Of a DNA stretch of 27,677 bases, positions 1-26,010 are shown piece by piece (position 1 is the first letter of the stretch; each line of letters starts with the position of its first letter). Source of the DNA: a virus; the IMG/VR virus record IMGVR_UViG_3300031629_000056, positions 1-27,677 of that record. The stretch is one strand, 5' to 3'. The notes under the pieces were generated by a model. It searched no databases. It was given only the letters and a program-made list of their open reading frames with translations, and was not told the DNA's origin. The translations under genes and the position numbers were made by a program.

Positions 1-314
1 TCTAAAGGGTTATGTAAGGTAATACCTTAAACATATAACGTTAGTTAACGTAAAGGTCTTAAAGGTCTTAAAGGTCTAAAGGTCTTAAAGATCTAAAGGT
101 CTAAAGGGTTATGTAAGATATTACCTTAAACAGATCAAACATTAGGCATAGAGGTTGACAGGTCTTAAAGATCTAAAGATCTAAAGGTCTAAAGGGTTAT
201 GTAAGGTAATACCTTAAACATATAACGTTAGTTAACGTAAAGGTCTTAAAGGTCTTAAAGGTCTAAAGGTCTTAAAGATCTAAAGGTCTAAAGGGTTATG
301 TAAGATATTACCTT
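1..314. repeat. Long tandem repeat, 127-bp exact copies 187 bp apart
   Basis: Positions 1-127 recur exactly at 188-314; the first copy may continue left of the window. Each copy contains an imperfect palindrome TAAGGTAATACCTTA, a dyad ACGTTAGTTAACGT, and several TCTAAAG or TCTTAAAG units spaced 8-9 bases apart. I count about ten TCTAAAG units in 1-294. No credible reading frame occurs. T7 carries arrays of a short CCTAAAG-type repeat next to its terminal repetition, so a terminus or packaging-related role is possible. Replication-origin iterons or regulator operators are the other options. The sequence gives no decision between them. Confidence 0.9.
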
Positions 315-335
315 TAACATAGCCTTGGTTAACGT

Positions 336-398
336 AAAGGTCTTAAAGGTCTTAAAGATCTTAAAGGTCTTAAAGATCTTAAAGGTCTTAAAGGTCTC
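336..398. repeat. Seven tandem 9-bp units (AAAGGTCTT type)
   Basis: Seven consecutive 9-bp units begin at 336, 345, 354, 363, 372, 381 and 390. Units alternate between AAAGGTCTT and AAAGATCTT, and the last ends in CTC. Because 9 is a multiple of 3, the array stays open in frame and spells a Lys-Val/Ile-Leu repeat, but it lacks coding signs and I treat it as DNA structure. It continues the TCT(T)AAAG theme of the preceding long repeat. Confidence 0.9.
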
Positions 399-429
399 AA
401 AGGGTATATATGTATATGACCGTTACAGT

Positions 430-2712: not shown

Positions 2713-2914
2713 AGAACTAAACATGGCTTCCCTCTGGGAGAGGTGCGCTGACCTAGAAGAGCAACTCTACTTCAAGAAGGCAGAGATCAGGGACCTATCT
2801 CTTGAGATAGAAGCAGCCAATTCCAAGGTGTCTAGGCTAGAAGCTCTTTCAATCGACCTCAGTCACCAAGCGCGACAGCTAGCTCAATACGCCCAATCTC
2901 TGAGGGCACTATGA
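2702..2914 (+). CDS. Small coiled-coil protein upstream of integrase
   Basis: This 70-residue protein is predicted from heptad spacing to be largely a coiled coil: leucine or isoleucine recurs through ADLEEQLYFKKAEIRDLSLE and SKVSRLEALSIDL. A GAGGAG ribosome site precedes the ATG. Its stop overlaps the integrase start as ATGA, so it is probably translationally coupled to the integrase. The position would suit an accessory recombination factor, but nothing in the sequence shows DNA binding and I assign no function. Confidence 0.6.
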   Translation: MTTKELNMASLWERCADLEEQLYFKKAEIRDLSLEIEAANSKVSRLEALSIDLSHQARQLAQYAQSLRAL

Positions 2915-4050
2915 AACTTACAACAGAACTCATCAATCGCATAGAGCTCCCCAGAGCTGGCCGGAAGTACATAACAGACAGCATCACACGGGGACTCACC
3001 TTGGAGTTGACACCCAAAGGGAAGAGACTTCTCGACGTGTACCGCCGTGAAGATCGCACTAAAGCTCGTGATGTCCTCGGAGTGTGGCCCATAGTCTCTC
3101 TCCAAGCTGCCATAGGTGCCTGTGAGGCCCGTAAAGACCTCCAGTTGAACGATAAGGATAAACCCTTTGTGATTCCCTACGTTGCACATGATGTCTCTGA
3201 GAGAGGCTCAACGGAGCTTATAGGGCTTGTGGGTGCGTATGAGCTATCACACGTTCGCACCTTGTCACCCTCGTCACAAGCCCTGTATACGGCCATGCTG
3301 AAGCTCTTCACGGACAAGAATCAGTACATCGAGAGGGTAACGATGAGGTCTCTGCGGCTCCAGATGGATGATATTGGGGTATCAACTCCAGTACAGGCCA
3401 ACAGGTTCTGTGCGGTTGTGAGTGGTTTCCTCCAATGGGCTGTTGAGCGCGGGTATTGTGACAACAACGTCGCTCGCGGGCTGCGCCGTTTCAAAGAGCA
3501 ACCTTCCACACGCTACTTGGCAGAGCCAGAGCTTACCAAACTAGCGAGTGCCATAGAGTCATTTAGAGGGCAATGCGGACTCAAGTTATACATCCAAATA
3601 GCCCTGGCGACTCTAGCTAGGAGCAATGAGATAGAGGGTATTAAGTGGAGCGAGGTAAACGGTAACGAATGGCTCATTCCTGCTGATAGAACCAAATCGA
3701 ATAGAGAGCACCTTATGTTCCTTCCAGACTCAATAGCGGCTTGCATAGAAGACCGCAAGCACCAGGGTTTTGAGGAAATCATTACGGTGAAAAGCTCTTC
3801 TGTTCGCCAAGCTTTAAAACGCATCGCAAAGAAGCAAGGTATCACTCACTTTAGCAATCACGATCTTCGTCGAACGTCTTCAACTTTGCTGGCAAAAGAG
3901 GGGATCGACCAAGATACCAGAGCACGTATGCTCAACCACTCAATAGGAGGTACAACCGAAAGGCACTATACATCTTACAACTTTCAAGCTGAGAAACACG
4001 CTGCCGCATTGAAACTGTGGGCAGTTTTAGAACGCACTGGGATACTATAA
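2911..4050 (+). CDS. int: Tyrosine recombinase, phage integrase
   Basis: This 379-residue integrase catalyses site-specific recombination between attP and the host chromosome. The N-terminus (residues about 15-70, RGLTLELTPKGKRLLDVYRR and LGVWPIVSLQAA) resembles the DUF4102 arm-binding domain typical of tRNA-targeting integrases. A core-binding domain follows at about 100-190. Catalytic residues are visible as R237 (LARSNEIEG), H317-D-L-R320, H343 (MLNHSIGG) and the nucleophile Y353 (RHYTSY). The start overlaps the upstream coiled-coil gene by ATGA. The phage RNA polymerase gene follows after only 15 bp, an arrangement also known in integrase-bearing T7-like phages of marine bacteria. The length is normal for the family and no lesion is seen. 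attP lies 1.6 kb upstream rather than directly adjacent. Confidence 0.93.
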   Translation: MKLTTELINRIELPRAGRKYITDSITRGLTLELTPKGKRLLDVYRREDRTKARDVLGVWPIVSLQAAIGACEARKDLQLNDKDKPFVIPYVAHDVSERGSTELIGLVGAYELSHVRTLSPSSQALYTAMLKLFTDKNQYIERVTMRSLRLQMDDIGVSTPVQANRFCAVVSGFLQWAVERGYCDNNVARGLRRFKEQPSTRYLAEPELTKLASAIESFRGQCGLKLYIQIALATLARSNEIEGIKWSEVNGNEWLIPADRTKSNREHLMFLPDSIAACIEDRKHQGFEEIITVKSSSVRQALKRIAKKQGITHFSNHDLRRTSSTLLAKEGIDQDTRARMLNHSIGGTTERHYTSYNFQAEKHAAALKLWAVLERTGIL

Positions 4051-4065: not shown

Positions 4066-6546
4066 ATGAAAGATTCAGCACAGGTCAATGACCAGCAAGC
4101 TCCAGAAGTGAGCGAGAATCTAATACAAAGAGAGTACGCATTAGAAATGGAGGCCGTCGATAGGGCCAAATTGAACATAGAGAAACGCATCACCACCAGA
4201 GGGTTCGCTGAAGGCTCAGTAACTGCTAGGGCGGCACTCCGCAACAGTATCTCTCTCACCACAGTTTCTTTACAGAATTGGCTTGATAATCAGAGAAAGC
4301 TTAAACGTAAGAGCAGAGTGTACCGCAACTTGCTCCTCTTAGAGCCAGAGCAAATGGCTTTCATCACAGGACGTGTCTTGCTGGACCAAGCGTTCAAAGA
4401 GAAATCAAACTTCACCGGACTGTGCGCCAAAGTTGGGAGGCAAGTGAAGGATGTAGCAGAGTATGCCATATTCAAAGAGGCCAACAAGGGTTTAGCGAGC
4501 ACGATTGAGAAGCAGCTACTCCACACTACATCTTCGAAGCACTCTAGGGCAGTGACCTCTGCCGCTATGAAGTCAGCGGACTTTGAGGGCATCCAGTGGA
4601 ACCATTCGGATATTGTTACACTAGGTGTCGTATTGGCCCAGTGCTTCGTTGAATCTACGGATCTTTTTGAGCGAATAGTTCTTCGAGGTGGAAAGAAGAC
4701 CACAGCATACCTAGTACCCACTGTGACCCTTCAGATACTGTTGGCTCAAGCCGACATACGAGACTCTCTAATACTTCCATTCCACTACCCGATGCTCGTG
4801 AAGCCCACAGATTGGACCACGATGGAAAATGGGGGCTACTTGGACCAAGAGTTGCACGGAGTGCGTCTTATTAAAGGGGATGCTTCTTTAGCCACGAGGC
4901 TAGACGCCACGGACACCTCGAAAGTGAGGAGTGCTGTCAATAACATACAGTCCACTGGGTGGCGTATAAACTCTCTTGTGCTTGACGTTCTAAGGATACT
5001 CAATGACGCTGGAGACGGCTCGGCAGGTCTTGCAAGCAGTCTGCCGCCGCCCATACCAGAGAAGCCTTGGCCTGTGATGTCAAAGGAGGAATGGACCACT
5101 TGGAAGGAGGATACCCAAAACAAGGAAGAGTTTGATAAGTGGCGCTACCTAGCTAAGAACGCCTATCGAGATCAAAAGAAGTGGGCGGGTCATAGGCTGG
5201 TCCAGCAGCAGCAAATCATGGTGGGCGAGAAGTTCGTTGACGAAACTGCCATCTACTTCCCGCATTCCTTGGATTTCAGGGGACGAGTGTACCCGGTTGC
5301 TGGCATGGGCAGTGTGAACCCTCAAGGAAATGACGCTGGGAAAGCTTTGCTGGAATTTGCTGAAGGTTTGCCATTAGGTCCAGATGGGGCTAAGTGGCTC
5401 GCCATACATCTAGCCAACACTTACGGTAACGACAAGTGCTCTTTTTATGACCGAGAGTTGTGGGCGCAAATGAACTCTGATTGGATATTGGAGTGCGCTG
5501 AAGACCCCATCAATAACACTAGGTGGCATGAGGCTGATAAGCCTCTATGCTTTTTGGCTACGTGTTTCGAGTGGCGGGGGTATCACAAGGATGGTGATGA
5601 TCACATCAGCAGAACCTGCGTGGCTATGGACGGCTCTTGCAGTGGCTTGCAGCACTACGGTGCGATGCTATTGGACGAAGGGACTTGCCGTGCTGTGAAT
5701 GTCATCCAAACGGGTGATTCACCACAGGACGTATACTCAGTAGTCCTAAACAAAGTCAAGATGCTAGTGCAGAAAAACCCAGACCCTCTAGCAATGCAGT
5801 GGGTTACAAGGCTTCACCGCAATATATGCAAGCAGCCAATAATGACGAGTGTTTATTCTGTGACACAGCGTGGCATCACTCTGCAAATAGAAACATGGAT
5901 TGGAAAGCTCGTTAAGAAAGGAGAAATCGAACCGTTCGTTGACTGCACTAACATGCAAGCCGCGCTGTTTTTAGCGCCGATAGTCTTGGAAGCTATTGAT
6001 GACGAACTGACAGCAGCAACGTGCGCTATGAACTGGCTGAAGAACGTCTGTACGGTTGTTAGTTCAACAGGGTCCGCATTGGAGTGGCAAACTCCGGTGG
6101 GATTTACGGTATTCCAAAGCTATCGAGACTTGAAAGCAGAAGTCGTTAAGATCACTTGGGCTGGTAAGCGGCAGAAGTTAAATATAAAAACACAAAGCAA
6201 GGAGCTAGCACCCAAAAAGTGTGTCAACGCTATAGCAGCTAACTTTGTCCATTCAATGGACGCATCTCATTTGATGCTGGTAGCTAATGTAGGGAAGGAT
6301 AATGGAATAGATTCATTTGGATTCATCCATGATTCCTTTGGCACACACCCCAGCGCCACCACTCTACTTAACGAAGTTATAAGAGAGTGCTTTATCGCGC
6401 AATACGAAGGTGACACCCTCGCTGATTTTTATGAGCAAATCAGGGAGCAGGTAGAGCCAGAAGTGTTCGAGCAAATAGAACCACCACCCAGGCAAGGGAA
6501 AATGGAACTACAGGCTGTCAGAGACAGTCTTTTTTTCTTTGCGTAA
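4066..6546 (+). CDS. Single-subunit T7-type DNA-directed RNA polymerase
   Basis: This 826-residue polymerase (T7 gp1 has 883) would transcribe phage genes from phage-specific promoters. Motif A is MDGSCSGLQHYGAML with catalytic D522. Motif B is KQPIMTSVYSVTQRG with K589 and Y597, at the same 8-residue spacing as T7 K631 and Y639. Motif C is FIHDSFGTH with D756. The protein ends in FFFA, like the FAFA end of T7 RNA polymerase. The region of residues about 680-735 corresponds to the promoter specificity loop and differs strongly from T7, so the T7 promoter consensus should not be expected here. An AAGGGG ribosome site lies 10 bases before the start. The gene follows the integrase closely, so host transcription through int may also switch it on. 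Confidence 0.97.
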   Translation: MKDSAQVNDQQAPEVSENLIQREYALEMEAVDRAKLNIEKRITTRGFAEGSVTARAALRNSISLTTVSLQNWLDNQRKLKRKSRVYRNLLLLEPEQMAFITGRVLLDQAFKEKSNFTGLCAKVGRQVKDVAEYAIFKEANKGLASTIEKQLLHTTSSKHSRAVTSAAMKSADFEGIQWNHSDIVTLGVVLAQCFVESTDLFERIVLRGGKKTTAYLVPTVTLQILLAQADIRDSLILPFHYPMLVKPTDWTTMENGGYLDQELHGVRLIKGDASLATRLDATDTSKVRSAVNNIQSTGWRINSLVLDVLRILNDAGDGSAGLASSLPPPIPEKPWPVMSKEEWTTWKEDTQNKEEFDKWRYLAKNAYRDQKKWAGHRLVQQQQIMVGEKFVDETAIYFPHSLDFRGRVYPVAGMGSVNPQGNDAGKALLEFAEGLPLGPDGAKWLAIHLANTYGNDKCSFYDRELWAQMNSDWILECAEDPINNTRWHEADKPLCFLATCFEWRGYHKDGDDHISRTCVAMDGSCSGLQHYGAMLLDEGTCRAVNVIQTGDSPQDVYSVVLNKVKMLVQKNPDPLAMQWVTRLHRNICKQPIMTSVYSVTQRGITLQIETWIGKLVKKGEIEPFVDCTNMQAALFLAPIVLEAIDDELTAATCAMNWLKNVCTVVSSTGSALEWQTPVGFTVFQSYRDLKAEVVKITWAGKRQKLNIKTQSKELAPKKCVNAIAANFVHSMDASHLMLVANVGKDNGIDSFGFIHDSFGTHPSATTLLNEVIRECFIAQYEGDTLADFYEQIREQVEPEVFEQIEPPPRQGKMELQAVRDSLFFFA
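6515..6540 (+). terminator. Possible weak terminator in the RNA polymerase tail
   Basis: CTGTC-AGA-GACAG (6515-6527) forms a 5-bp hairpin followed by a T-rich run to 6540. The same bases encode the conserved C-terminal end of the RNA polymerase, so the T-run may simply be Phe codons. If real, it would separate int-RNAP transcription from the replication operon. Confidence 0.3.
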
Positions 6547-6588: not shown

Positions 6589-7290
6589 ATGGAACAAGTA
6601 ACATTTAAGAAAACAGTATCTCCAAAGGGCACAGTCGGGCCTTACTGTAAGCTAACTGTCGCCGACGTATACGAAGGTAAGACAGAATTCAAATGCGCTG
6701 TGGTATTTGACCCAGCCGAGGAAGGCGTGAACGATTACATCAAAGATATCGAAGCGGCAGCAGACGCTGGCTATGCTAAAGGTATCGCAGAGATAGATAA
6801 GGACCTTGAGACGGCCAAAGGAGCAAAGCTTAACTCCCTCAAAGAGCGCAGGGATAACCTGATTCGTTCATGCCCCGTGAAAGACGAAGTTGCGGAAGAT
6901 GGAAGCCCAACGGGACGTTACCTCGTCAATTTCAAAAGGACCGCAAAAGGTGTGTATCGGTTCGGAAAGGATCAAGGTAAATCTTGGAGCATCAAACTCC
7001 CAATCTTTGATACTAAGAAGAAACCAATCACAGAATCTGAAGGAGAAATCTACGAAGGAAGCACACTCCGCATCCAAGCACTGCTCAAGACATACACGAT
7101 GCCGACTAGAGCTGGTGTATCCATGAACATCCGAGCGGTCCAGGTTATTAACTTGATTAGCAGAGCTGATGGCGGTGGCGATGCTAGCGGCTTCGACATT
7201 GAGGAAGGCTACGAAGCAAGCGAAGTCGAGAGGGTAGTTTCTAAAGGAGAACCATCCGAGAGCTATCAAGACGACAGTTCAGACTTCTAA
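6589..7290 (+). CDS. gp2.5-like single-stranded DNA-binding protein
   Basis: This 233-residue protein (T7 gp2.5 has 232) would coat single-stranded DNA and bind the phage polymerase and helicase during replication. It begins with an OB-fold-like strand pattern (VTFKKTVSPKGTVGPYCKLT), contains the region RYLVNFKRTAKG, and ends in an acidic tail SESYQDDSSDF with a terminal Phe. That tail is the hallmark of gp2.5 proteins. It is the first gene of the coupled operon, and its stop shares a base with the next start. Length, tail and position all agree. Confidence 0.88.
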   Translation: MEQVTFKKTVSPKGTVGPYCKLTVADVYEGKTEFKCAVVFDPAEEGVNDYIKDIEAAADAGYAKGIAEIDKDLETAKGAKLNSLKERRDNLIRSCPVKDEVAEDGSPTGRYLVNFKRTAKGVYRFGKDQGKSWSIKLPIFDTKKKPITESEGEIYEGSTLRIQALLKTYTMPTRAGVSMNIRAVQVINLISRADGGGDASGFDIEEGYEASEVERVVSKGEPSESYQDDSSDF

Positions 7291-7676
7291 TGCAACGAGT
7301 GCCAAGAACTAGAGCAGGAGGGCGCTGGACGGAATCAAGATTCTTTGGGTTCATCCGGTCTGCCCTCCGCTCTGCGGCCATGCGTTACCCACCAAAGTTT
7401 GATGCTCTAGCAGCAGCTAAACGAACTAAGCCACAAGGAAAACCAGGCAAGCACAGGTTTGAATACCAGTGTGCTTACTGCCTTGATTGGTTTGAAATGA
7501 AAGACGTAGCAGTTGACCACATAGTACCCGCTGGGTCTTTGAAGTCCTTCAATGACATAGCTTCATTCGCGGAGAGGCTCTACTGCGAACCCGATGGCCT
7601 TCAGGTGTTGTGCAAATCACCTTGCCACCAACGCAAAACTAACGCCGAAAGGAAAGCGGCAAAGGAATCCAAATGA
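7290..7676 (+). CDS. HNH endonuclease in the T7 endonuclease I slot
   Basis: This 128-residue protein carries a compact HNH fold: CAYCLDWF (first zinc pair), VDHIVPAGSL (catalytic HNH His after Asp) and LQVLCKSPCHQRKTNAE (second zinc pair and last His). It is basic at both ends, as DNA-binding proteins often are. T7 has the structurally unrelated endonuclease I between genes 2.5 and 3.5, where it resolves junctions and degrades host DNA. Here an HNH protein occupies exactly that slot, so it may be a non-homologous replacement or a free-standing homing nuclease. It overlaps the preceding stop (TAATG) and the following start (ATGA). Confidence 0.85.
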   Translation: MQRVPRTRAGGRWTESRFFGFIRSALRSAAMRYPPKFDALAAAKRTKPQGKPGKHRFEYQCAYCLDWFEMKDVAVDHIVPAGSLKSFNDIASFAERLYCEPDGLQVLCKSPCHQRKTNAERKAAKESK

Positions 7677-8089
7677 AACGAGCAAAACTTAAAACGGAGG
7701 AAGTCACACGAATAATCGTATCAGCCACCATGACTATGGACGATGAGGACGCCCTGGAATCGTTGGTGATAGAGCATTGTTGCCACACGCCAGAGAAGCT
7801 TGGGTGTCACTACTACATACAGAAGAACGGAGACGTACTGACACCTGTGAGCCATGAAGAACGCGGCAATTGGTTTTCTCGCTATGGTAGCACAGCAATA
7901 TTCATCGTCGTTGAAGGTGGACTAGATGATGACGGTCAGTTATCCAACAACTTCATGGCTGGTCAGATTTGCTGGATAAAGGGCATCGTGAAGACATTAA
8001 AGAAAATATACCCAAACGCTGAGTTAACTCTGCACCGAGAGCTATTTCTCGGCGTCAACCCAGTATTAACTAAGGAGCAAATAGAATGA
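7673..8089 (+). CDS. T7 lysozyme (gp3.5) homologue lacking amidase active site
   Basis: This 138-residue protein aligns along its length with T7 gp3.5, the N-acetylmuramoyl-L-alanine amidase that also binds and inhibits T7 RNA polymerase. Landmarks are RIIVSATMT (T7 IFVHCSAT), LGCHYYIQKNGDV (T7 VGYHFIIKRDGTV), IFIVVEGGLDDDGQLSNNF (T7 IGVCLVGGIDDKGKFDANF) and LTLHRELFLGVNP (T7 LRAHHEVAPKACP). By this alignment the first zinc His is deleted, Tyr46 is C45, Lys128 is G127 and the zinc Cys130 is N129; only the His equivalent to 122 (H121) remains. It should therefore have no amidase activity. The frame is intact, with coupled starts on both sides, so it is under selection for another role, most simply RNA polymerase control. 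The alignment was made by eye. Confidence 0.8.
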   Translation: MKRAKLKTEEVTRIIVSATMTMDDEDALESLVIEHCCHTPEKLGCHYYIQKNGDVLTPVSHEERGNWFSRYGSTAIFIVVEGGLDDDGQLSNNFMAGQICWIKGIVKTLKKIYPNAELTLHRELFLGVNPVLTKEQIE

Positions 8090-8334
8090 AAAAGACAACA
8101 GTATCTAAGATAAAGCGCCACCCAAAAACTGGAACACAAGTAGCAACAATCTTGAGTCACCTTCAGTCGGGTAGGTCCATCAATCAGGTTTCTTCTGCTG
8201 GTCTGTACGCCATACCGCAGTTGTCCGCTGCTGTACGTCACCTTCGCCAGATGGGCTGGAACATATCCAAGCAAACCCATACTGGTGTCAGAGGGGCCTA
8301 CGCAGAATACAAGCTAACCACTAAGGGAGAATAA
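8086..8334 (+). CDS. Small helix-turn-helix (HTH_39-like) protein
   Basis: This 82-residue protein has the pattern of the small winged-helix proteins found in many phage replication operons. It reads QVATILSHLQSGRSINQVSSAG, then QLSAAVRHLRQMGWNI, then a basic wing ending AYAEYKLTTKGE. These are usually annotated as helix-turn-helix domain of unknown role. The start overlaps the preceding stop as ATGA, and the primase-helicase gene follows 1 bp after its stop. A DNA-binding role in replication or transcription is inferred; no target is known. Confidence 0.7.
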   Translation: MKKTTVSKIKRHPKTGTQVATILSHLQSGRSINQVSSAGLYAIPQLSAAVRHLRQMGWNISKQTHTGVRGAYAEYKLTTKGE

Positions 8335-8335: not shown

Positions 8336-10000
8336 ATGTCCGACTTCAGCCACCATGAGCCGTGCCCTAAGTGCTCTAGCAGCGATGGGTTCGCTAGGTA
8401 CACAACAGGATCGGGGTTCTGCTTCAGCGGCGGCTGCGGTCACTGGGAGCCCTCTGATGCCGACTATGTACCTGTAGTTCCAGAGGGTAGCTCTAAGCGC
8501 ATGAAGCTCCCAGAGCTAGGTGAGTATAGAGGGATACCACGCAGAGGCATCGACGAGGCTACTTGCAGAAAGATGCGGTACAGCATGAGCGAGTATTTCG
8601 TTAAAGGCCCTGATGGTTGGGAGCCTATCCCAGCGCATGTTGTCCACGTCCCAGATCAAGACGGACAACCTGTAGCAGCTAAGGTAAGGATGCCCGGAAA
8701 GGAGTTTAGATTCGTTGGAGACACGAAGGAGGCGGGTCTGGTGTTTCAGAACATCTGGCCTAGAGGCGGCCTCAAGCTCACGGTCTGCGAAGGAGAGATA
8801 GATGCCCTATCTGTCTCCCAGATCAATAACAATAAATACGCAGTTGTGAGTTTACCCAATGGTGTCAGCAACGCAGCAGAAGTTTGCGGTAGGTCGCGTG
8901 ACTACATCAATAGTTTTGACGAAGTGATCCTGATGTTTGACCAAGACGAAGCTGGCAGGGAGGCCGCGAGAGAAGTAAGTAAGCTCTTTAAGCATGCCAA
9001 GATCGCAGAGCTTCCACTCAAGGATGCCAACGAGATGCTGGTCGCTGGCAGAGGGCAGGAAGTTGTCTCTGCTGTCTTCAACGCTCAACCGTGGAGTCCT
9101 TCTGGCGTCCTTACCCTCGCCAGTTTGAAGGAAGAAATTCTAAAGCCAGTTGAGTGGGGTAGCCCTTGGGTTTTCCCTACGCTTAACGAGATGACGTTTG
9201 GGAGGCGAAGGGGCGAGCTGGTTACGCTAGGCGCTGGGACAGGCATCGGTAAGACCAGCTTCATCTTGCACCAGGCTATTGCTGATATTAAAAGCGGCAC
9301 AGAGAAGGTCGCACTCTTTCTTTTGGAGCAGAACCCAACAGAGACCAGCAAGCGTCTAGCGGGTGTGATGGACCACAAGATGTATCACCTACCACCAGAC
9401 GCAGGTAAATATTCGGCAGAAGAGCTGGAGGCTTCAGTGGACAAACTGATAGCGATGGAAGACGTGTTCCTGTTTAGCCACTTTGGAAGTAAAGACTTCG
9501 ACAGTATTGCCGAGAACATCAGGTGGCTCGCGCTTACTCACGGTGTCACGCAGGTGTACCTAGACAATCTCACCGCACTAACAGCTCACGCCTCTGACGA
9601 GCGTCGGGAGCTAGACAAGGTTTGTGAGCAACTGGCATCGCTTGCCCAAGAGCTGAATATCCACATGGTGGTTGTATCTCACCTAACCACACCAGCTAAA
9701 GGCAGCCACGAAGAGGGAGCCAGAGTGAAGGCTAGAGAGTTCAGAGGGAGCCGCAGCGTTGCTATGTGGTCCCACTTCTTGATTGGACTGGAGCGTCACA
9801 CGCAGCATGAGGACCCCTTTGTTCGCTCAGTGACTACGCTGCGATGCTTGAAGGATCGGAACACTGGACGAGGCAATGGCAAGACGGTCCTGATGGGATT
9901 CGATGAAGCTACCGGAGTTCAGTACGAACTTTCGCCACAAGAGATTGAAATGTACCACGAGGCTCTCAACGGGGGCCAATCATTTAGCGAGGATTTCTAA
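8336..10000 (+). CDS. gp4-like bifunctional DNA primase-helicase
   Basis: This 554-residue protein (T7 gp4 has 566) makes RNA primers and unwinds the fork ahead of the phage polymerase. The zinc ribbon is C10-x2-C13...C29-x4-C34, the element that recognises primer sites. The Toprim primase core shows VCEGEIDALS with E152 and MFDQDEAG with D202 and D204. The RecA-type helicase domain has Walker A GAGTGIGKTSF with K306, a Walker B-like VYLDNLT and a VVVSHL motif. The C-terminus is acidic (SFSEDF), as in T7, where it contacts the DNA polymerase. It is coupled to its neighbours on both sides. No catalytic residue appears to be missing. Confidence 0.96.
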   Translation: MSDFSHHEPCPKCSSSDGFARYTTGSGFCFSGGCGHWEPSDADYVPVVPEGSSKRMKLPELGEYRGIPRRGIDEATCRKMRYSMSEYFVKGPDGWEPIPAHVVHVPDQDGQPVAAKVRMPGKEFRFVGDTKEAGLVFQNIWPRGGLKLTVCEGEIDALSVSQINNNKYAVVSLPNGVSNAAEVCGRSRDYINSFDEVILMFDQDEAGREAAREVSKLFKHAKIAELPLKDANEMLVAGRGQEVVSAVFNAQPWSPSGVLTLASLKEEILKPVEWGSPWVFPTLNEMTFGRRRGELVTLGAGTGIGKTSFILHQAIADIKSGTEKVALFLLEQNPTETSKRLAGVMDHKMYHLPPDAGKYSAEELEASVDKLIAMEDVFLFSHFGSKDFDSIAENIRWLALTHGVTQVYLDNLTALTAHASDERRELDKVCEQLASLAQELNIHMVVVSHLTTPAKGSHEEGARVKAREFRGSRSVAMWSHFLIGLERHTQHEDPFVRSVTTLRCLKDRNTGRGNGKTVLMGFDEATGVQYELSPQEIEMYHEALNGGQSFSEDF

Positions 10001-10233: not shown

Positions 10234-10757
10234 TGTCACACAAATGCAAGGAGAAGAAGGCTGCTTACATGAAGCAGTGGAGAGCAGATAACAAGGAATC
10301 CATAGCTGCTAAAAAGAAGAAGTGGCAAGCAGATAACAAGGAAGCACAGGCTGCTTATAATAAGATTTACATGAAGCAGTGGAGAGCAGATAACAAGGAA
10401 TCCATAGCTGCTAAAAAGAAGCTTTATAATCTAAAAAATTCTTATGGTTTAACCGAGGAAGACTACCAGAGCATATTAGAAGCGCAGAATGGTTGCTGCC
10501 CGATCTGTCTGAAACATCACACCGAGTTTACCAGGAGGCTTGCAGTCGATCATATACACGATCGTGCTGCTTCGGGTTTGGATTATAACAAAGGCGTATC
10601 TGGCGCTGTCCGTGGCCTTCTCTGCGATAGCTGCAACACAGGCATCGGAAAGTTAGGAGACTCACTGGATAACTTCATACGGCTCATAGCTTACAAGATG
10701 GGCAGCGACTTATGCCCATTCACTTTAACTGAACGAGATAAAAACGAGAGCGACTAA
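10233..10757 (+). CDS. Endonuclease VII-type HNH nuclease with N-terminal repeats
   Basis: This 174-residue protein has a C-terminal recombination endonuclease VII domain: CCPICLKHH, then LAVDHIHD, then GLLCDSCNTGIGKLGD. It shows the zinc cysteines and the catalytic DH pair. In T4 the family resolves branched DNA; free-standing copies in phages are often homing nucleases. The N-terminal 65 residues are three helical repeats of the form YMKQWRADNKESIAAKKK, with a shortened middle copy, likely a basic DNA-binding surface. At DNA level 55 bp are exactly duplicated. The gene lies directly before the DNA polymerase gene, with coupled start and stop. Confidence 0.85.
   Translation: MSHKCKEKKAAYMKQWRADNKESIAAKKKKWQADNKEAQAAYNKIYMKQWRADNKESIAAKKKLYNLKNSYGLTEEDYQSILEAQNGCCPICLKHHTEFTRRLAVDHIHDRAASGLDYNKGVSGAVRGLLCDSCNTGIGKLGDSLDNFIRLIAYKMGSDLCPFTLTERDKNESD
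10265..10421 (+). repeat. Internal duplication, 55-bp exact copies 102 bp apart
   Basis: Positions 10265-10319 are repeated without mismatch at 10367-10421, with a diverged third unit between them. The repeats stay in frame and encode the helical repeats of the HNH gene. Perfect identity points to a recent duplication or gene conversion. Confidence 0.92.
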
Positions 10758-12741: not shown

Positions 12742-13191
12742 ATGGAAGTTTTAAGATTATGCAAGAGGTGTGAGCGTAAGGCGCATAACGTGGACGAGCT
12801 AGAATATTTTACTAAGAGGAAAGACTCCAAGCATGGGCGCAATAACTTATGCAAACAATGCGCCAATGATCACGGAAAAGGAAAAGGAAGAGACTGGAAG
12901 ACAGACCACCAAACTAGGAAGCGTTATGGCGTAGGCGTTGCAGAGTACAAGAAACGCATGGCTACAAGCGCATCCTGTGAGTGCTGTGGGTCAGAAGAAA
13001 ACCTCTGCTATGACCACTGCCATGAAACCATGAAGTTCCGTGGCGTTCTGTGTAGGTCATGTAACGCAGCCATAGGCCAGCTAGGTGACAGACTAGAGGA
13101 TATTCGGAGAGCGGTTGCCTACCTTGAGAGGGCTTTAGTACGCCCTGACATAAGTGAACAAACATACACAGAGGAATACGCAAATGACTGA
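12742..13191 (+). CDS. Endonuclease VII-type HNH nuclease downstream of polymerase
   Basis: This 149-residue protein has an N-terminal zinc-ribbon-like part (CKRCERKAHN and NLCKQCANDHGKGKG) and an endonuclease VII-type HNH domain: CECCGSEENLCYDHCHE, then RGVLCRSCNAAIGQLGD. The DH pair and four cysteines are present, so it should be active. GGAGGAA lies a few bases before the ATG. It differs from the HNH gene on the other side of the polymerase except in the core motif, so the two are not a simple duplication. It could resolve recombination intermediates or act as a homing nuclease against polymerase-region alleles. Confidence 0.85.
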   Translation: MEVLRLCKRCERKAHNVDELEYFTKRKDSKHGRNNLCKQCANDHGKGKGRDWKTDHQTRKRYGVGVAEYKKRMATSASCECCGSEENLCYDHCHETMKFRGVLCRSCNAAIGQLGDRLEDIRRAVAYLERALVRPDISEQTYTEEYAND

Positions 13192-13912
13192 GAAAGACTT
13201 ACGACTAGATTACCTAGCGGCCCGACTGTGCTCTGCAAGCTACCCAAGCCAGCAGCATCGCATGGACTTCCTGATGGACGACTTCATACACGAAAGCGAC
13301 AATAGCCACGATTTCGATTGCTGGGTCGGGGAAGGTGCTGAACATAACTTCGCTGTGTTCAGAGGGTACAAGGCTACGACTACGCTTTCATGGAGTGACA
13401 TCGGATCAATGGTAGTTGATTACTTCCGCCCTCTACCGGGTAACGACCTAAAACTACATCCACCATTCTTTAGTCTTTGGAGAAAAATGAGTCCAAAGGT
13501 TTTTCAAGCAACCCACACAATCCAATACACCCAGGCTCAAGAGCGTGGTGAATCCAAGCCTTGGGTCTTTACTGGACACGGACTGGGTGGCGCTATGGCA
13601 ACTATAGCAGCGGCCAGCTTCAAGCCAGCCACTCTTGTCACCTTTGGGGCACCTCGCGTGGGCGGTAAGAAGTTCGTTGAGGTTGTAGACGATTCCTGCA
13701 CACACCGACGGTGGCTTTCTGCTCGTGACAGAGGCGCAATGATTCCTTTGGGCGGCCACCAGATGCACAGCGGCGACCTGTTCTACATCGCCTCTAACGG
13801 CACCTTAGAACGCAACCCATCCGCAATGATGCAAGTGCTTGACCATGACAAGTGGTTTGAACGGCACGGCATTGAATCATACGTAGACTTTATAGAGGAA
13901 TCATTTGCATGA
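13184..13912 (+). CDS. Class 3 lipase-like protein with Gly at the nucleophile position
   Basis: This 242-residue protein has the Lipase_3 alpha/beta-hydrolase layout: early FAVFRGYKATTTLSWSDIG (usual FRGT), then PWVFTGHGLGGAMATIAAAS, then LVTFGAPRVGGKKF, then a charge-relay region RDRGAMIPL and a late HSGDLFYIASNG. In active members the elbow is GHSLGGA; here residue 133 is Gly (codon GGA), two substitutions away from any Ser codon. It is therefore probably not a conventional lipase. No signal peptide is visible, so it acts inside the cell. GAGGAA at 13171-13176 supports the ATG at 13184 over an upstream in-frame ATG. It overlaps its neighbours by ATGA-type junctions within the replication operon. 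The function is unknown. Confidence 0.75.
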   Translation: MTEKDLRLDYLAARLCSASYPSQQHRMDFLMDDFIHESDNSHDFDCWVGEGAEHNFAVFRGYKATTTLSWSDIGSMVVDYFRPLPGNDLKLHPPFFSLWRKMSPKVFQATHTIQYTQAQERGESKPWVFTGHGLGGAMATIAAASFKPATLVTFGAPRVGGKKFVEVVDDSCTHRRWLSARDRGAMIPLGGHQMHSGDLFYIASNGTLERNPSAMMQVLDHDKWFERHGIESYVDFIEESFA

Positions 13913-14082: not shown

Positions 14083-14825
14083 AGCCACAGCTACTCATAG
14101 ATGCGGACATCGTAGCGTTCCGCTGTGCCGCTAGAGCTGAGACATTGACAGCTTTTGGGAAGACAGTGGGTCCACTAGAGGACTGCTTGGCTGACATCGA
14201 CCAGATGATTGATGGCTACCTAAAGCGCCTCAAGGCCTCTAGGCCCATCATGGCCCTGTCGTGTCGAGAAGCCAACTTCCGTGAGGCCGTGCTGCCAACG
14301 TACAAGCACAGCCGAAGCAAGTCTGTGGACTCAAGGCCCACCTATCTCACAGAAGCTAAGGCTCACCTTCGGGACCAGTATGAGAGCGTACTGCGCTACT
14401 CGCTAGAGGGTGACGATGTGTTAGGCATCTTGCAGACGGACAGCACCATCATAGTCTCAGAGGACAAGGATCTCCGCACAGTCCCCGGCAAGCTATACAA
14501 CCCACGCAGAGACGAGGTTGGTGTTATAGACATCACCCCGCTAGAGGCTAACCAGTTCCTCATGTGGCAGACGATCTGTGGCGATAGCACGGATGGTTAC
14601 AAAGGGGCTTTGGGTGTTGGTAAGCGTAGCCCCTACGCAGAGGCGGTGCTCGCAGCAGATGCTGATGAGCTTTGGGACATCGTAACTGATGCCTACGCCA
14701 GCGTTGACATGACTGAAGACGAAGCAATCGTCCAAGCTCGCTGCGCCAAGATACTCACAAGTGAATTTTATGACGAGAAAACAGGAGTTAGATTATGGAC
14801 ACCAAGCGACCTAGAAGAAGCTTAA
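14079..14825 (+). CDS. gp6-like 5'-3' exonuclease (FEN family)
   Basis: This 248-residue protein would remove RNA primers and help degrade host DNA, as T7 gp6 does (about 300 residues). Metal-binding acidic residues appear in the family order: LLIDADIVAF (residues 5-14), SLEGDDVLG (about 107-115), VSEDKDLRTV (about 125-134) and CGDSTDGYKGALGVGKRS (about 167-184). The last stretch is the helix-hairpin-helix-type DNA-binding element of flap nucleases. It follows the polymerase with only short genes between, matching the T7 gene order 5 to 6. The reading frame overlaps the next gene by 31 bp. Confidence 0.9.
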   Translation: MKPQLLIDADIVAFRCAARAETLTAFGKTVGPLEDCLADIDQMIDGYLKRLKASRPIMALSCREANFREAVLPTYKHSRSKSVDSRPTYLTEAKAHLRDQYESVLRYSLEGDDVLGILQTDSTIIVSEDKDLRTVPGKLYNPRRDEVGVIDITPLEANQFLMWQTICGDSTDGYKGALGVGKRSPYAEAVLAADADELWDIVTDAYASVDMTEDEAIVQARCAKILTSEFYDEKTGVRLWTPSDLEEA

Positions 14826-15340
14826 ACGACCCAACGCCAGACGAATGGACAGCAGCATCACGCACTCACCCGGTTGGAAGCCGAGAGTGGTATCAAGAAA
14901 AGGAAGAGGAGGAATACCCAAGCTACTTCAAGGGTCGATCATCAGCCTCTTATGTTCCTGAAGATTACGTGGCCCCTAGTGCGTCTGAAGGTAACCCGAA
15001 GGCCCGTGTTGGGGCCCTGAAGGTCCCTATGCACTTAGTGCCACCTGTAGCTACTGTCCACCTCGCTATGGCTCTCAAAGATGGCGCTAAGAAATATGGG
15101 GCATTCAACTACAGATCGGGGAAAATCAATGTCAGCACTTACATCGGCGCTATCCATCGTCACCTCGCAGCTTACCAAGATGGTGAAGACTTTGCTGCTG
15201 ATAGCGGCGTTCACCACATTGCTTCTGTCTTGGCTGGGGGTGCTATTTTGTTGGACTGTCTTTCAATGGGTAACCTGGTTGACGATAGACCAGTACCAAG
15301 CAATGCGGCCAAGCTCATCGAAGAATGGAGAGACAAATGA
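14795..15340 (+). CDS. dATP/dGTP diphosphohydrolase-like (DUF5664) protein
   Basis: This 181-residue protein carries the pattern of the phage dATP/dGTP diphosphohydrolase N-terminal-like family. That pattern is KVPMHLVPPVATVHLAMALK, then DGAKKYGAFNYR, then YIGAIHRHLAAYQDGEDFA, then GVHHIASVLAGGAILLDC. The His and Asp/Glu pairs are candidate metal and phosphate ligands. The N-terminal 55 residues are acidic and low in structure. Relatives would hydrolyse purine dNTPs; in some phages such enzymes accompany 2-aminoadenine DNA, but no PurZ-like gene is in this window. It overlaps the exonuclease gene by 31 bp and ends in ATGA with the next gene. Confidence 0.75.
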   Translation: MDTKRPRRSLNDPTPDEWTAASRTHPVGSREWYQEKEEEEYPSYFKGRSSASYVPEDYVAPSASEGNPKARVGALKVPMHLVPPVATVHLAMALKDGAKKYGAFNYRSGKINVSTYIGAIHRHLAAYQDGEDFAADSGVHHIASVLAGGAILLDCLSMGNLVDDRPVPSNAAKLIEEWRDK

Positions 15341-15810: not shown

Positions 15811-18060
15811 TTATCTTGCGTTGAGCTTCTGGGCCCTCTGTGCTCTATCAGCAGCCTCATCGTCAGGAGAGGCAGCTACCCTAGCTGTGCCTCTTGTGGC
15901 AGAAGATAAACCCAATATGATAGCGTCAAGATAGTTCCTGTCACGCTTCGCATCTATACCGTCAAGCCTGTCAGCAATCTGCTGCCTAAGCTCAAGTCTG
16001 GCTGTCTTCACAGAGCTAGGTGGTAAGCTGCCATCGTTCAGGGCTTTAGCGGCTACGTCAAAAGCGTGTGTTTTTGACTGTCCTTTAAGTATCCGCATAG
16101 CTGGCGCGAGCATCTGTAGAGGTACTCCTAGATAGCCTGCAACACCCAGCCCAGCTATCTGCTGTGCTCCGCTGATAGAAGCAGCAGAGTTTGAGTTGTT
16201 AAGCTTAGCGCCTCCCTCTGGTTTCTGGTTACGCAAGTCCCACGCTCTCACAGCGCGTTCCATTTCTTCTGCTCCTTCTTCTCCCCAAAGCGCCCTCCGC
16301 ATCTTAGGGTCAAGCTCCTCCATAGCAGTCTTGTAAGCCTTGTGGCTGAACTCGTTAGGGTTTGCTCTAAGAGCCTTTGCGGTTAGCTCCATACGCTTAG
16401 AGTCAACCACCTTGTCCCACATAGGTTGCAGCTCAGGGATAGCTTCTATGTCTTTCTTGAGCTTTAATACATTATCCGCATTGCCTTTTTTGATTATGCT
16501 TTTGATGCTATCTATGGGGTTCCTAAATAAAGACTCACCATCTTTGCTGGTTCTTGTTAGCCTACCTAAGTCTGTTTCTTTGTCATCCCACTTGCGGTGT
16601 ACATCCCTAGCTTTTGTCCTCGCCTCCTTACCTAAGCGTCTTGGGTCGTTAGGGGCTAAGTTTATTTGATTGCCAAAGCCATCATCTATAACAAAGTCAT
16701 CGAGAGCATTCTTAACTCCTTTGGCAGCTCTGTTGGATGGGTCATCAGCAGCTTTGTAGATTGAATTAATCTCTTGGATAATCTCCTCTACTTTGTCTAC
16801 AGACAGGGGCTTGCTTTGAGCGCCACCCTTCTTGCTAAGAGTTATTCCATACTTGTCCATGATCTCTTCTATGTCTTTCTTAACGCCCTTCTGTCCCTGC
16901 TTTATTTTACCTATCTCAGTTTTTACCTTTGATCGGAAACCGTTAGTGTCCACTTTAGTGGTGCCACCATGAGACTTCCTCCACGCATCATAAGCATCAT
17001 CTACAGCCTTCTCCTCTCTGGCCCTAACATCCCTCATGCCTTGGACTAACTCATCTGAGCCACTCATAATGCCATTGGATGCTACGTCTGGAGTGTCCCT
17101 GTCATACTTATATCCTTCGCCGTTGAGCTTGTTGGCTCTAGCCTCTACAGCTTCTTGTTGGTACTTCCTAGAGGCTAAGTAGTCAGCATTGCCTGTGGTT
17201 TGTAATGCCTCTCTTTCTCTCAGTGCCAAGGTGTTACGCTCTGAGTCTGCTGCATCCAGTTTGTAGCCGCCGTCTTCTAAAGCCCGAACCTTCCTAGCTT
17301 GGCCCTCTGCTGTTAAGCCTATGGGATTAGCACCATCTTCTGCGGTCACAGGAGGACTGTCGTGGGCCATCATGGATACTTCGTTGTCTATCTTGTTGCT
17401 TCTCAGTTTGTGTGAAGCATACCCAAGGGCCTTGTCTGCTACACCAGCGGTTAAAGCGCCTATTGCTGCTGCTGGGGCTCTCTCTCCCAAATCTCCGCGC
17501 GTGGCTACAAACTCAGTAAGGCCACCTTCAACCATAGATAGAGTTCCTGTCCGTCCCGCCAAAGAGCCAACTTGAGCTGCACGAGCTACACCCATTCCCG
17601 GTATTAAGGAAGGGAGTACCTCGCCAGCTATCTCACCAGCAGTTGACCAACCGGAATCTCCAAAGCCTTTCTCATACAAAGCCCTCTCTTCGTCAGCCTT
17701 GCGGTTAAAACGATCTAAGCTATCCTCTTGCTCTTGAGTCCTGCCTCCACCGTCTATCTCCCCCGCTTTTCCTCCTCCCTGTGTACGCATATAAAGGTCT
17801 TTTGCGCCTTCACCGATGTTAGTAAGACCACGGCCCATACCAACAGCAAACTCATTAAACTTACCATCACCAAACAAGGGATCGCTCGTTACCGATCCAA
17901 ATAGTTCTTGATCCTCAGCGTTTAGGCCCCACTCGTTTGGCTTCTCTGCTTCTTTCTGCATTTCCACAGCGCGTCTAGTTAACTTACGCGCCATCTCCAT
18001 ATTGCCCTCAGCAGCGGCTTGCTTAATGCCGGTGTTAAGCTGCTCTATTGTCCATTTCAT
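15811..18060 (-). CDS. Large internal virion / DNA-ejection protein
   Basis: This 749-residue protein is the last gene of the virion operon. The N-terminus (IEQLNTGIKQAAAEGNMEMA) is a helical motif often seen at the start of large ejection proteins. Residues about 140-225 contain hydrophobic Gly/Ala-rich stretches (GEIAGEVLPSLIPGMGVARA and APAAAIGALTAGVADKAL) that could insert in membranes. The long middle is charged and helical. By position it corresponds to T7 gp15/gp16, which form the channel that carries DNA across the cell envelope, but it is shorter than gp16. I see no convincing transglycosylase motif. Function rests on position and composition. Confidence 0.65.
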   Translation of the reverse strand: MKWTIEQLNTGIKQAAAEGNMEMARKLTRRAVEMQKEAEKPNEWGLNAEDQELFGSVTSDPLFGDGKFNEFAVGMGRGLTNIGEGAKDLYMRTQGGGKAGEIDGGGRTQEQEDSLDRFNRKADEERALYEKGFGDSGWSTAGEIAGEVLPSLIPGMGVARAAQVGSLAGRTGTLSMVEGGLTEFVATRGDLGERAPAAAIGALTAGVADKALGYASHKLRSNKIDNEVSMMAHDSPPVTAEDGANPIGLTAEGQARKVRALEDGGYKLDAADSERNTLALREREALQTTGNADYLASRKYQQEAVEARANKLNGEGYKYDRDTPDVASNGIMSGSDELVQGMRDVRAREEKAVDDAYDAWRKSHGGTTKVDTNGFRSKVKTEIGKIKQGQKGVKKDIEEIMDKYGITLSKKGGAQSKPLSVDKVEEIIQEINSIYKAADDPSNRAAKGVKNALDDFVIDDGFGNQINLAPNDPRRLGKEARTKARDVHRKWDDKETDLGRLTRTSKDGESLFRNPIDSIKSIIKKGNADNVLKLKKDIEAIPELQPMWDKVVDSKRMELTAKALRANPNEFSHKAYKTAMEELDPKMRRALWGEEGAEEMERAVRAWDLRNQKPEGGAKLNNSNSAASISGAQQIAGLGVAGYLGVPLQMLAPAMRILKGQSKTHAFDVAAKALNDGSLPPSSVKTARLELRQQIADRLDGIDAKRDRNYLDAIILGLSSATRGTARVAASPDDEAADRAQRAQKLNAR

Positions 18061-18076
18061 ATATCAATTCCTATTG

Positions 18077-19294
18077 TTACAGCCCCAGCGACTTCAGATA
18101 TTCGTCTTCTTCTTCAACAGAAACTCCAGGATTCCCAGCGAGTGAGCTACCATCTCTTGCCTTCCTTCCGCCTACTCCAGCACTAGATTGAGTCGTATCA
18201 CCCGCTGCCGAAATAGACTTAGAAGATTCTAGGAATCCATCCTCTACAGCGTTCGCATACTGCTGCTGAGTAATGTTGCCTAGATCGAGTTGTTCCTTGA
18301 GACCACCGAGAACGTGAATCATGTTATCAAGACCGGCCATCTTAGCTTTAACTGTGTTGGTAGAGTCCCCCGCTTCGGGAACGTACAACTGCCTGTATCG
18401 TTCAACTTCTGGCTCTGGCGCTGCTGCACCAGTTGCTAGACGAAGTAATGTCTCAGAGGCATCAATGGCCTCACGTTGGAACTCTTGTCCTGGACCGGAT
18501 GCTGCGAAGTTAGTCCAGCCTCCAGCCGTTAGCTGGTCTATGTAACCCTGCCATCCTGTTGGGTTATAACCAGGTTTCCCATCTTCTCCAGGAGACATTA
18601 GCTTCTTCATGTTGCCAACAGCGTTTATCAGCTTGAGAGAGTCGTCCTGTCGAGCTTGGTCTGGGGCACTCATTTTACCTTTGAAGTTTCCATCACTAGA
18701 ACGCTTAGTACCGCCAAGTTGCTGCGCTACGTTTTGCATTGCTGGGTCAACTTTATAATATGCAGGGTCTATATCATTCTGGGTTTCTCCGTTGATAACG
18801 TCACTTGCGTTCTGACCTTCGGGTACAGGTATGGCGCCTGGTGGAAGGTCGGATGGCTTACCATTTTGAACGGGAAGCACATAAGTTATACCGGAATCAG
18901 TTACATACTGAGCGTACATCAGGCCATCGCTGCCCTCTTTGAGGGTTGTTCCTATACGGTTGTGGGCTGGCTTCACTTCAGACACCTCATCGACTAAATT
19001 CCTGTCAGCTATACCAGCAGAAAAAACCTGCCTGCGATCATACTCAGCGTTAGCAGCGCCAGTCACTACGAGATGGTCTTGGATGCCTTGGAGTCTAGCA
19101 TCATCGGCGTCCTTAAGACCTTGGAGTCTAGCTCCGTCAGCGGATTCTCTGGCCTCTTCAACGTCTGCTAGCTTATTCGCACGGGCCTCTGCGAGACGTT
19201 CAGATACAATCTTTTCCTTTGCGATGATGCCGAAGTAGTTCCCAGCGCCTTCTGCTGCGGTTCCCAAAGCCCCTATTGCTGCCCAGTTGCTCAT
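18077..19294 (-). CDS. Putative internal virion protein
   Basis: This 405-residue protein starts MSNWAAIGALGTAAEGAGNY, followed by a long Glu/Ala/Arg helix (residues about 28-80) containing near repeats of ADGARLQGLKD and DDARLQGIQD. The rest is polar with no catalytic motif that I recognise. Such N-terminal small-residue helices plus coiled coil are typical of podovirus ejection proteins. It overlaps the upstream gene by ATGA and is followed 16 bp later by the largest virion gene. Assignment is by position and composition only. Confidence 0.6.
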   Translation of the reverse strand: MSNWAAIGALGTAAEGAGNYFGIIAKEKIVSERLAEARANKLADVEEARESADGARLQGLKDADDARLQGIQDHLVVTGAANAEYDRRQVFSAGIADRNLVDEVSEVKPAHNRIGTTLKEGSDGLMYAQYVTDSGITYVLPVQNGKPSDLPPGAIPVPEGQNASDVINGETQNDIDPAYYKVDPAMQNVAQQLGGTKRSSDGNFKGKMSAPDQARQDDSLKLINAVGNMKKLMSPGEDGKPGYNPTGWQGYIDQLTAGGWTNFAASGPGQEFQREAIDASETLLRLATGAAAPEPEVERYRQLYVPEAGDSTNTVKAKMAGLDNMIHVLGGLKEQLDLGNITQQQYANAVEDGFLESSKSISAAGDTTQSSAGVGGRKARDGSSLAGNPGVSVEEEDEYLKSLGL

Positions 19295-19989
19295 ACCATT
19301 CTCTCCGCTTGTCCTGCTTGTTGCACCTGCTCACCCATATTTGTAATGATTGGTTGGGCTGCTCCTCGGTCACCTTCAGCGACGTTCATATCTGGACGTG
19401 CCTGTTCTCCACCCTTCTGAAGCTGTAGGGGCGCTGCGCCTTCTTGGTAAGCCTGCAAGTCCCCATCTACCGCTTCTGGGTTCTGGTCCATCCACGTGTT
19501 TATTCCTATAGAGAGAGCCTCGGCCATTTGGTCATCGTTGAACTTAATCGTTGGGTCCGCAGACTCCGCAAGTTCAACGAGTTGCTCTACTGCTGCTTCT
19601 CCTAGTGAGAACAAAGCGTCCTCCGAAAGATCAGGGTTCTCACCCCAAACTTCGTCGGTGAGAGCTGCTGCCATTGAACCCACGCCTTTCACTGGGTCAC
19701 CGTTGGCTTGTATGGCCTTGATTATCTTGGGGTTGGCTGGGCCAAACACCCTCTCAGCTAGGCTACGCTCGGCTCTGGTGAACGCTTCTTGTTCTGTAGG
19801 GTCTGCCATCTCTTCTGCCATGTCTCGGTCTTCACCTTCGACTACGGCTTGGCCGTATGCAGCTCTACCTTCTTGTTCTAAAGCTACAGCGTTGGGTCTG
19901 GAGTTCTCCACCCTTTCAGCAACGCGCTGCTCAGACTGAACAGCCTGCTGTGCGCCGTTCTGCTCGGCTATCTTCTGTAGTAAGCTCAT
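19291..19989 (-). CDS. Acidic putative internal virion protein
   Basis: This 232-residue protein is rich in Glu, Gln and Ala, with a helical N-terminus (SLLQKIAEQNGAQQAVQSEQ) and a disordered, Gln/Gly-rich C-terminus. It has no membrane segment and no enzyme motif. It lies between a membrane-active-looking protein and a coiled-coil virion protein, in a block equivalent to T7 genes 14-16. A component of the ejected protein set is the best guess; I do not recognise a family. Confidence 0.55.
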   Translation of the reverse strand: MSLLQKIAEQNGAQQAVQSEQRVAERVENSRPNAVALEQEGRAAYGQAVVEGEDRDMAEEMADPTEQEAFTRAERSLAERVFGPANPKIIKAIQANGDPVKGVGSMAAALTDEVWGENPDLSEDALFSLGEAAVEQLVELAESADPTIKFNDDQMAEALSIGINTWMDQNPEAVDGDLQAYQEGAAPLQLQKGGEQARPDMNVAEGDRGAAQPIITNMGEQVQQAGQAERMV

Positions 19990-19992
19990 GGT

Positions 19993-20682
19993 TTACGCCT
20001 GTGCATATTGGTTGGTGGAACTGTCGTAGTAGTCTTTGCGCTGCTTCTTGCCGTTCAGCTCTACGTTCGCTACTTTGCTTATTGCAGACTCTTTCCGATT
20101 AGAAAGAGAACCTGCGTCCAGCTCGGCCTCACCAGCACTTGAGCTAACTCCACCAATATCGGCAGGAGTCCAATCTCCACGGCCTTCCATCTGGAGCTTG
20201 AATGATCCATTCTCATCCAGCGTCTTGAGTCGCTTGTCTTCTGCTTCTTCTTCTTCCTTGGACTTGGCATACCCAGAAAGAACCTGTCCGCCTGTAGTTA
20301 GGACGGAAGAGGTTAGAGTGGGGTTGGCAGCGGCGTATGCGCCTATGGCTTTAGCACCTGCGGCTATTGAACCAATGACTCCTGTGCCAGCAGTGGCGGC
20401 AGCTCCTGCTGTGTTTGCAACCATCGTACTGCCAATGCCCGTCGCTAGGTTCGGGACGGCGGCTGTTGTTATCGGGGCTAACGCCCCAGCACCTCCCGCA
20501 GCAGCACCAGCAGAACTCATGGAGGCCAGTATCCCAGGGGCGGCCGTTATAGCGAAATAAGCTACAGCCGCTATCGCTACCGCTTTGAATAGCTTGCTAT
20601 TAACGATTTTCTTGGTAACCTGAACGACTTTCTTAAAGACTTTTTTCACGCCTTTGGAAATCTTCTTTAATACTCCACTCAT
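19993..20682 (-). CDS. Membrane-active putative ejection protein (gp14-like slot)
   Basis: This 229-residue protein has an N-terminal Lys-rich amphipathic stretch (LKKISKGVKKVFKKVVQVTK) followed by a hydrophobic segment (KAVAIAAVAYFAITAAPGIL). A long Ala/Gly-rich hydrophobic region runs to about residue 145 and a polar C-terminal third follows. This looks like a protein that binds and crosses a membrane, as expected of the first ejected proteins of T7-like virions (gp14 forms the outer-membrane pore). It starts on the stop of the GNAT gene (1-bp overlap). Confidence 0.6.
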   Translation of the reverse strand: MSGVLKKISKGVKKVFKKVVQVTKKIVNSKLFKAVAIAAVAYFAITAAPGILASMSSAGAAAGGAGALAPITTAAVPNLATGIGSTMVANTAGAAATAGTGVIGSIAAGAKAIGAYAAANPTLTSSVLTTGGQVLSGYAKSKEEEEAEDKRLKTLDENGSFKLQMEGRGDWTPADIGGVSSSAGEAELDAGSLSNRKESAISKVANVELNGKKQRKDYYDSSTNQYAQA

Positions 20683-21140: not shown

Positions 21141-21148
21141 TCTTCAGC

Positions 21149-24812: not shown

Positions 24813-24817
24813 ATCCT

Positions 24818-25441: not shown

Positions 25442-25543
25442 GAGCTGTTTATAGTTGATATGTCACCCCCATAGGGTCGAAGTGGTTGAATTTGGTTAGT
25501 GGGTTACGCCCACCACTCGGCCGGTCCCAAGGTAGGGACTGGG
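25442..25543 (-). promoter_or_regulatory. Intergenic hairpin region before the tail adaptor gene
   Basis: Read leftwards, two hairpins occur after the upstream stop: GTCCC/GGGAC around a TACCTT loop, and GTGGG/CCCAC around CGTAA. Neither has a U-run, so RNA processing or mRNA protection fits better than termination. A string CGACCCTATGGGGGTGA follows and looks slightly like a T7-type promoter end, but I cannot confirm it. Confidence 0.4.
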
Positions 25544-25996: not shown

Positions 25997-26010
25997 TATT
26001 GATTCCTCGT

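Follow-up and report, generated by a model that had tools for sequence, protein, structure and literature searches.

The DNA analysed here, referred to as the window, is a virus record from IMG/VR of 27,677 bases, which leaves roughly one third of a 40-kb genome uncovered. It comes from a T7-like virus of bacteria. The + strand carries a T7-like early and replication module, consisting of integrase, RNA polymerase (RNAP), gp2.5, an HNH endonuclease, gp3.5, an HTH_39 protein and gp4, followed by endonuclease VII, DNA polymerase and an exonuclease. Opposing it on the − strand is a structural module (15811-27512), which is not itself T7-like and includes a tail-fibre-like protein, an SU10-type adaptor and the major head protein. 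Several of the structural proteins of the window have no family match; the major head protein belongs to PHROG_1357, and its nearest named relatives, from Pseudoalteromonas, Stenotrophomonas and other phages, are 29-36% identical. At the start of the window (1-420) a 132-bp stretch is present in two copies 187 bp apart (99%), together with arrays of AAAGGTCTT-like units, a possible origin, iteron or terminal-repeat region. The endonuclease VII gene contains an in-frame tandem repeat (10247-10421, +), with copies 45-57 bp apart, that encodes YMKQWRADNKESIAAKKK.

The gene of interest, gp3.5 (7673-8089, +), encodes a protein of 138 aa (P0001), and lies between RNAP/gp2.5 and gp4, as is usual for the T7 gp3.5 family. 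In order along the + strand, there is a tyrosine integrase (2911-4050; PF00589, E=1.5e-20), directly upstream of a T7-type RNAP of 826 aa (4066-6546; PHROG_414, E=3e-216), which is the presumed target of gp3.5. The position of the integrase beside the RNAP suggests a temperate lifestyle. These are followed by a gp2.5-like ssDNA-binding protein (6589-7290; PHROG_112, E=3e-23), an HNH endonuclease occupying the place of gp3 (7290-7676; PHROG_1985, E=1e-27), gp3.5 itself, an HTH_39 winged-helix protein (8086-8334; PF14090, E=9e-12) and a gp4-like primase/helicase (8336-10000; PHROG_239, E=3e-156). The initial annotation described the gp3.5 frame as intact and translationally coupled, with the phage's own RNAP upstream, and this description holds: the 138 codons contain no internal stop, ATGA overlaps join gp3.5 both to the HNH gene, which ends at 7676, and to the HTH_39 gene, which starts at 8086, and the RNAP retains the equivalents of six catalytic residues (D537, R627, K631, Y639, H811 and D812).

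By descent the window protein is a member of the T7 gp3.5 family, as judged from both sequence comparison and structural modelling. It matches the amidase family PHROG_822 (E=5.4e-14, residues 7-124), and a phmmer search of the PDB finds T7 lysozyme as the only relative (1ARO and 1LBA, E=1.4e-5), in agreement with the homology proposed initially. The score for Pfam Amidase_2 is below threshold, at 17 bits vs a cut-off of 26. The AlphaFold (AF2) model has a pLDDT of 88.3 and a pTM of 0.85, and its best Foldseek matches in the PDB are again 1LBA and 1ARO, at TM 0.73-0.74 with 1LBA at the top (0.74); peptidoglycan recognition proteins (PGRPs) are also among the structural neighbours. The window protein thus resembles T7 lysozyme in fold, length, tail motif, the presence of a T7-type RNAP, and a gene position between gp2.5/gp3 and gp4. 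It differs in having lost two of the three zinc ligands as well as the catalytic Tyr and Lys, and the identity is 22-25%.

The active-site residues are numbered here as in mature T7 lysozyme. The zinc ligands His17, His122 and Cys130 correspond in the window protein to Ser17 (TCA, 7721-7723), His121 (CAC, 8033-8035) and Asn129 (AAC, 8057-8059), all on the + strand, so that one ligand of the three is kept. Tyr46 is replaced by Cys45 (TGT, 7805-7807, +) and Lys128 by Gly127 (GGC, 8051-8053, +). The alignments therefore bear out the substitutions of Tyr46, Lys128 and Cys130 that had been read from the sequence, and the protein has neither the three zinc ligands of an amidase nor its Tyr46/Lys128 pair. 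The loss of His17 is also seen in the alignments. It had been described as a deletion, VHCSAT becoming VSAT, and this part needs revision: the segments around position 17 line up as IIVSATMTM, IIIMSTMTM and VVVGSTMTA in the window and its orthologues, so a substitution by Ser, with a one-residue gap further upstream, is the likelier alignment. Neither alignment has a His, and the 15 residues to either side of the H17 site are free of His and Cys, as is everything after H121, so that no realignment restores the zinc ligands. Nor is there a KACP motif in the other reading frames. An error of sequencing, assembly or frame is ruled out, the same losses being found in three orthologues. Loss of the catalytic site is thus strongly supported by sequence comparison, and we infer that the window protein does not cleave peptidoglycan.

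Searches of IMG/VR with P0001, RNAP or gp2.5 alone identified no close relatives, and neither did a search of GTDB genomes with P0001; a scan with the capsid protein was the only one to reach true relatives, of which nine are 69-73% identical; one further match is short. Three of these are long records (G041, G045 and G047), with RNAPs 56, 45 and 42% identical to that of the window, and each has a gp3.5. All three proteins are dead, with three zinc ligands gone in each: the residues at positions 17/46/122/130 are M/C/Y/N in G041 and G/M/W/N in G045 and G047. His121 of the window is therefore Tyr or Trp in the orthologues, and Asn129 lies in a G-[VI]-N-P motif common to all four. G045 and G047 have a deletion of about 12 residues in the region of helix alpha1, which in the window protein has diverged. 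The four proteins are 43-87% identical (window vs G041, 45%). Forty positions are invariant between the window, G041 and G045, including M1, R3, A4, L6, T19-M20-T21, H46, E81-G82-G83, G127, N129 and P130. G045 and G047 have 87% amino acid identity in gp3.5, with a dN of 0.085 and saturated dS, and the gene is therefore under purifying selection. That gp3.5 is maintained as a protein in this lineage is strongly supported by these comparisons.

The N-terminal tail, M1-L6 (MKRAKL, 7673-7690, +), is conserved and resembles that of the T7 subfamily, and is likely to be an RNAP-binding element. In T7-like lysozymes the inhibition of RNAP arises from the N-terminal tail, with position 3 being critical, and exchange of the first nine residues carries inhibitory strength from one lysozyme to another (PMC10138996). 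The amidase activity of T7 lysozyme requires zinc and the inhibition does not, and lysozyme residues 2-52 make contact with RNAP residues 307-312, 720-736 and 844-855 (PMC5445346). All four proteins of the window lineage share the tail M[KR]RA[KN]L. The window's MKRAKLK fits the pattern Mx[RK][AV]x[FL][RK], written down after the window had been seen, as do the T7-subfamily tails with which it was compared (MARVQFK, MAKVQFK and MPKAEFK); of the roughly 70 other distant tails examined, from intact and dead proteins alike, none shows the pattern. Across the window, G041 and G045, invariant positions make up 6/11 of the tail vs 34/127 of the rest of the protein, a marginal enrichment (p=0.06).

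On the polymerase side, similarity to T7 RNAP is higher at the contact sites than over the whole protein in all three RNAPs compared from the lineage (window, G041 and G045), and likewise in four pelagivirus-type RNAPs and in the intact phage L126. Contact sites of this T7-like kind are found in 8/34 distant RNAPs with gp3.5 vs 0/22 without (Fisher p=0.013, a value that ignores relatedness and the choice of statistic, the window lineage itself contributing three related RNAPs). When the RNAP interface was compared group by group with random positions, the difference did not reach significance (p=0.08 and 0.19). The resemblance is best described as suggestive. Many T7-like phages with an RNAP have no detectable gp3.5, which means that a phage can do without the regulatory function.

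Loss of the zinc site is not confined to this lineage. The loci examined contain 143 gp3.5 homologues, of which 101 retain all of HYHKC and about 30 belong to dead classes. Losses are seen in the marine clade A2 (H122F, C130S), in L206 and L207 (Y46F, C130S), and in L059 and L069, where the H122/C130 region is missing. They are also seen in gp3.5 of isolated Pelagibacter phages: HTVC109P has HFYVS, HTVC021P HFCNS and HTVC201P HFCKC, while HTVC200P and HTVC119P have Asp in place of H17 and no C-terminal ligands. On sequence, these five appear dead or nearly so, HTVC201P being the least certain because its Cys could still bind zinc. The ligands are kept in HTVC031P, HTVC168P, HTVC142P and Eistla. 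The dead-type pelagiphages resemble the window in the loss of zinc ligands, in a T7 gene order with RNAP, and in having an integrase. They differ in that it is mainly H122 and C130 that are lost, H17 being kept in all except HTVC200P and HTVC119P, in a shorter and non-T7-like tail, in a GH24 endolysin in the genome, and in that their genes are annotated as active ('lysozyme' or 'amidase'). The annotated HTVC200P and HTVC119P proteins are 97-98 aa long (L220:7562-7897, L221:7515-8057); the homologous frame runs further upstream (TKYIFIDSTKTP) without an ATG, so the start codon is probably misannotated.

Mapping the dead state onto the RNAP tree takes 5-6 changes, and starred branches force no fewer than five of them; the RNAP trees are quick trees, with some long branches. 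The conclusion is that the zinc site was lost at least five times in T7-like phages. Dead genes keep gp3 and gp4 as neighbours, and RNAP lies upstream in every contig that extends far enough. In A2, a large marine dead clade independent of the window lineage, dN/dS is 0.055-0.25, a sign of purifying selection; its sister clade has no gp3.5.

A GH24 endolysin (PF00959) is found in all five dead-class pelagiphages and in two of the four with intact ligands, and Peptidase_M15_3 in 4/5 near-complete A2 contigs. Neither turned up in a search of 18 IMG/VR records, some of them fragments, that are not from pelagiphages and have an intact gp3.5, or in six named intact phages; M15 is also present in some phages without gp3.5. 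This pattern fits a sequence in which a new endolysin came first, after which the catalysis of gp3.5, and sometimes the entire gene, was lost. No endolysin was identified in the 27,677 bases of the window. In G041, G045 and G047 a conserved gene of 144-152 aa adjoins a large internal protein (L252:5549-6007; L253:16246-16680, −; L255:15007-15438, −). It resembles GH24 weakly (E=0.016, short of the cut-off), matches the N-terminus of PHROG_37474 (2087 aa), and is a candidate endolysin; G041 also has a 3TM holin. The gene is missing at the matching place in the window, where 111 bp separate the neighbours.

It is worth adding that the window contains two labels which look like mislabels. One is a PHROG 'amidase' at 23196-24926. 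The other is PHROG_2252, 'endolysin; inhibits RNA polymerase' (14795-15340, +; E=1e-40), at a gene that also matches PHROG_801, a dATP/dGTP pyrophosphohydrolase; this label was probably carried over wrongly within PHROGs. A class 3 lipase (13154-13912, +; PF01764, E=1e-10) is encoded in the early/replication strand and is kept in G041 (L252:8315-9034, E=4e-10). It is unusual cargo for a T7-like phage, and perhaps a lysis helper.

We consider it reasonably probable that gp3.5 of the window is a pseudo-amidase kept as a cytoplasmic partner or damper of the phage RNAP, acting through its M-x-R-A-x-L tail. It would have the T7-lysozyme fold without the zinc site and without cell-wall cleavage; the tail would grip the phage's own RNAP much as T7 lysozyme does; and the protein so anchored would damp the polymerase, by inhibition or by phase control of transcription. 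A likely history is that a separate endolysin took over the cutting of the cell wall, leaving gp3.5 free to lose its catalytic site. Indirect support for a remaining role at the RNAP comes from the T7-like tail, the intact RNAP and the contact sites. Against it count the marginal enrichment in the tail, the post hoc motif and the non-significant broad interface test, and also the deletion in G045 and G047 of alpha1, since the T7 interaction domain (residues 2-52) includes this helix. The failure to identify an endolysin in the window counts against it too, and the chief reservation is the number of relatives that have an RNAP and no detectable gp3.5. The original proposal that only the regulatory job remains is thus partly supported: catalytic loss and retention of the protein hold across four orthologues, and a role at the RNAP is probable.

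Non-catalytic PGRPs, such as PGRP-SA and PGRP-LC, have the Amidase_2 fold and a regulatory role after loss of zinc ligands, and the Cys-to-Ser change of the A2 type resembles their state. This change and the PGRPs among the structural neighbours would suit a protein that binds peptidoglycan without cutting it, whether it acts as a sensor, times lysis or inhibits a different lysin. We think this unlikely: the orthologues have other residues at the groove-lining positions H17, Y46 and H122 and lack part of the fold, the gene lies among replication genes next to the RNAP, and inspection by eye finds no signal peptide. PGRP-SA and PGRP-LC themselves differ in being animal receptors for peptidoglycan, either secreted or in the membrane, with no link to RNA polymerase. 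The absence of gp3.5 from the sister clade of A2, and the shortening of dead proteins in places, might instead point to a functionless relic, disappearing since another endolysin took over. The chance of this appears slim, given an open frame in four diverged orthologues, the fixation of new residues (G-[VI]-N-P, TMT), the saturated dS at a dN of 0.085, and the dN/dS of A2.

Equally slim is the chance that gp3.5 is kept for some other partner in transcription or replication, for example the HTH_39 protein, gp4 or the HNH enzyme. Translational coupling to the HNH and HTH_39 genes is in its favour, as is the fact that an HTH_39 homologue (E=5e-11) adjoins gp3.5 in G041 too; the tail, however, resembles a known RNAP-binding tail, and in G045 it is an RNR gene that follows gp3.5, HTH_39 not being adjacent. 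Finally, the window protein has an unusual H35-C36-C37-H38 cluster and C45-H46, from which one could imagine a new and perhaps catalytic zinc centre formed by HCCH, Cys45 and His121. This is very improbable, since G041, G045 and G047 have no such cluster, and confidence in the model is lowest over residues 31-40 (pLDDT 67).

Returning to the proposed damper of RNAP, it may not cover the A2 and L059-type proteins, because these lack a tail of the T7 type, and the interface scores of the corresponding RNAPs are low. The statement that a dead gp3.5 is an RNAP regulator may therefore hold for the window lineage and not for all dead groups. Only tentatively, then, and with the balance somewhat against it, can it be proposed that gp3.5 pseudo-amidases form a class of their own, arising repeatedly and kept by selection, whose members are dedicated to regulating transcription: lysis would have been handed to a separate endolysin, and the former lysozyme would have become a stand-alone regulator of RNAP. 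Such a class is perhaps tuned to temperate life, because the window and several dead-type pelagiphages have an integrase beside the RNAP.

Among phage proteins with two functions T7 lysozyme is the textbook case, and pET/pLysS systems use it as their inhibitor. Its two functions, their separability and the role of the tail are already known. In the open literature surveyed, no description of a natural amidase-dead gp3.5, recurrent or selected, was found. Selected versions of this kind would show which of the two jobs of T7 lysozyme evolution keeps, and would supply RNAP inhibitors without cell-wall toxicity. The labels 'lysozyme', 'amidase' and 'endolysin' in marine phage genomes would be corrected, and it would become testable whether temperate T7-like phages restrain their own RNAP by means of gp3.5.
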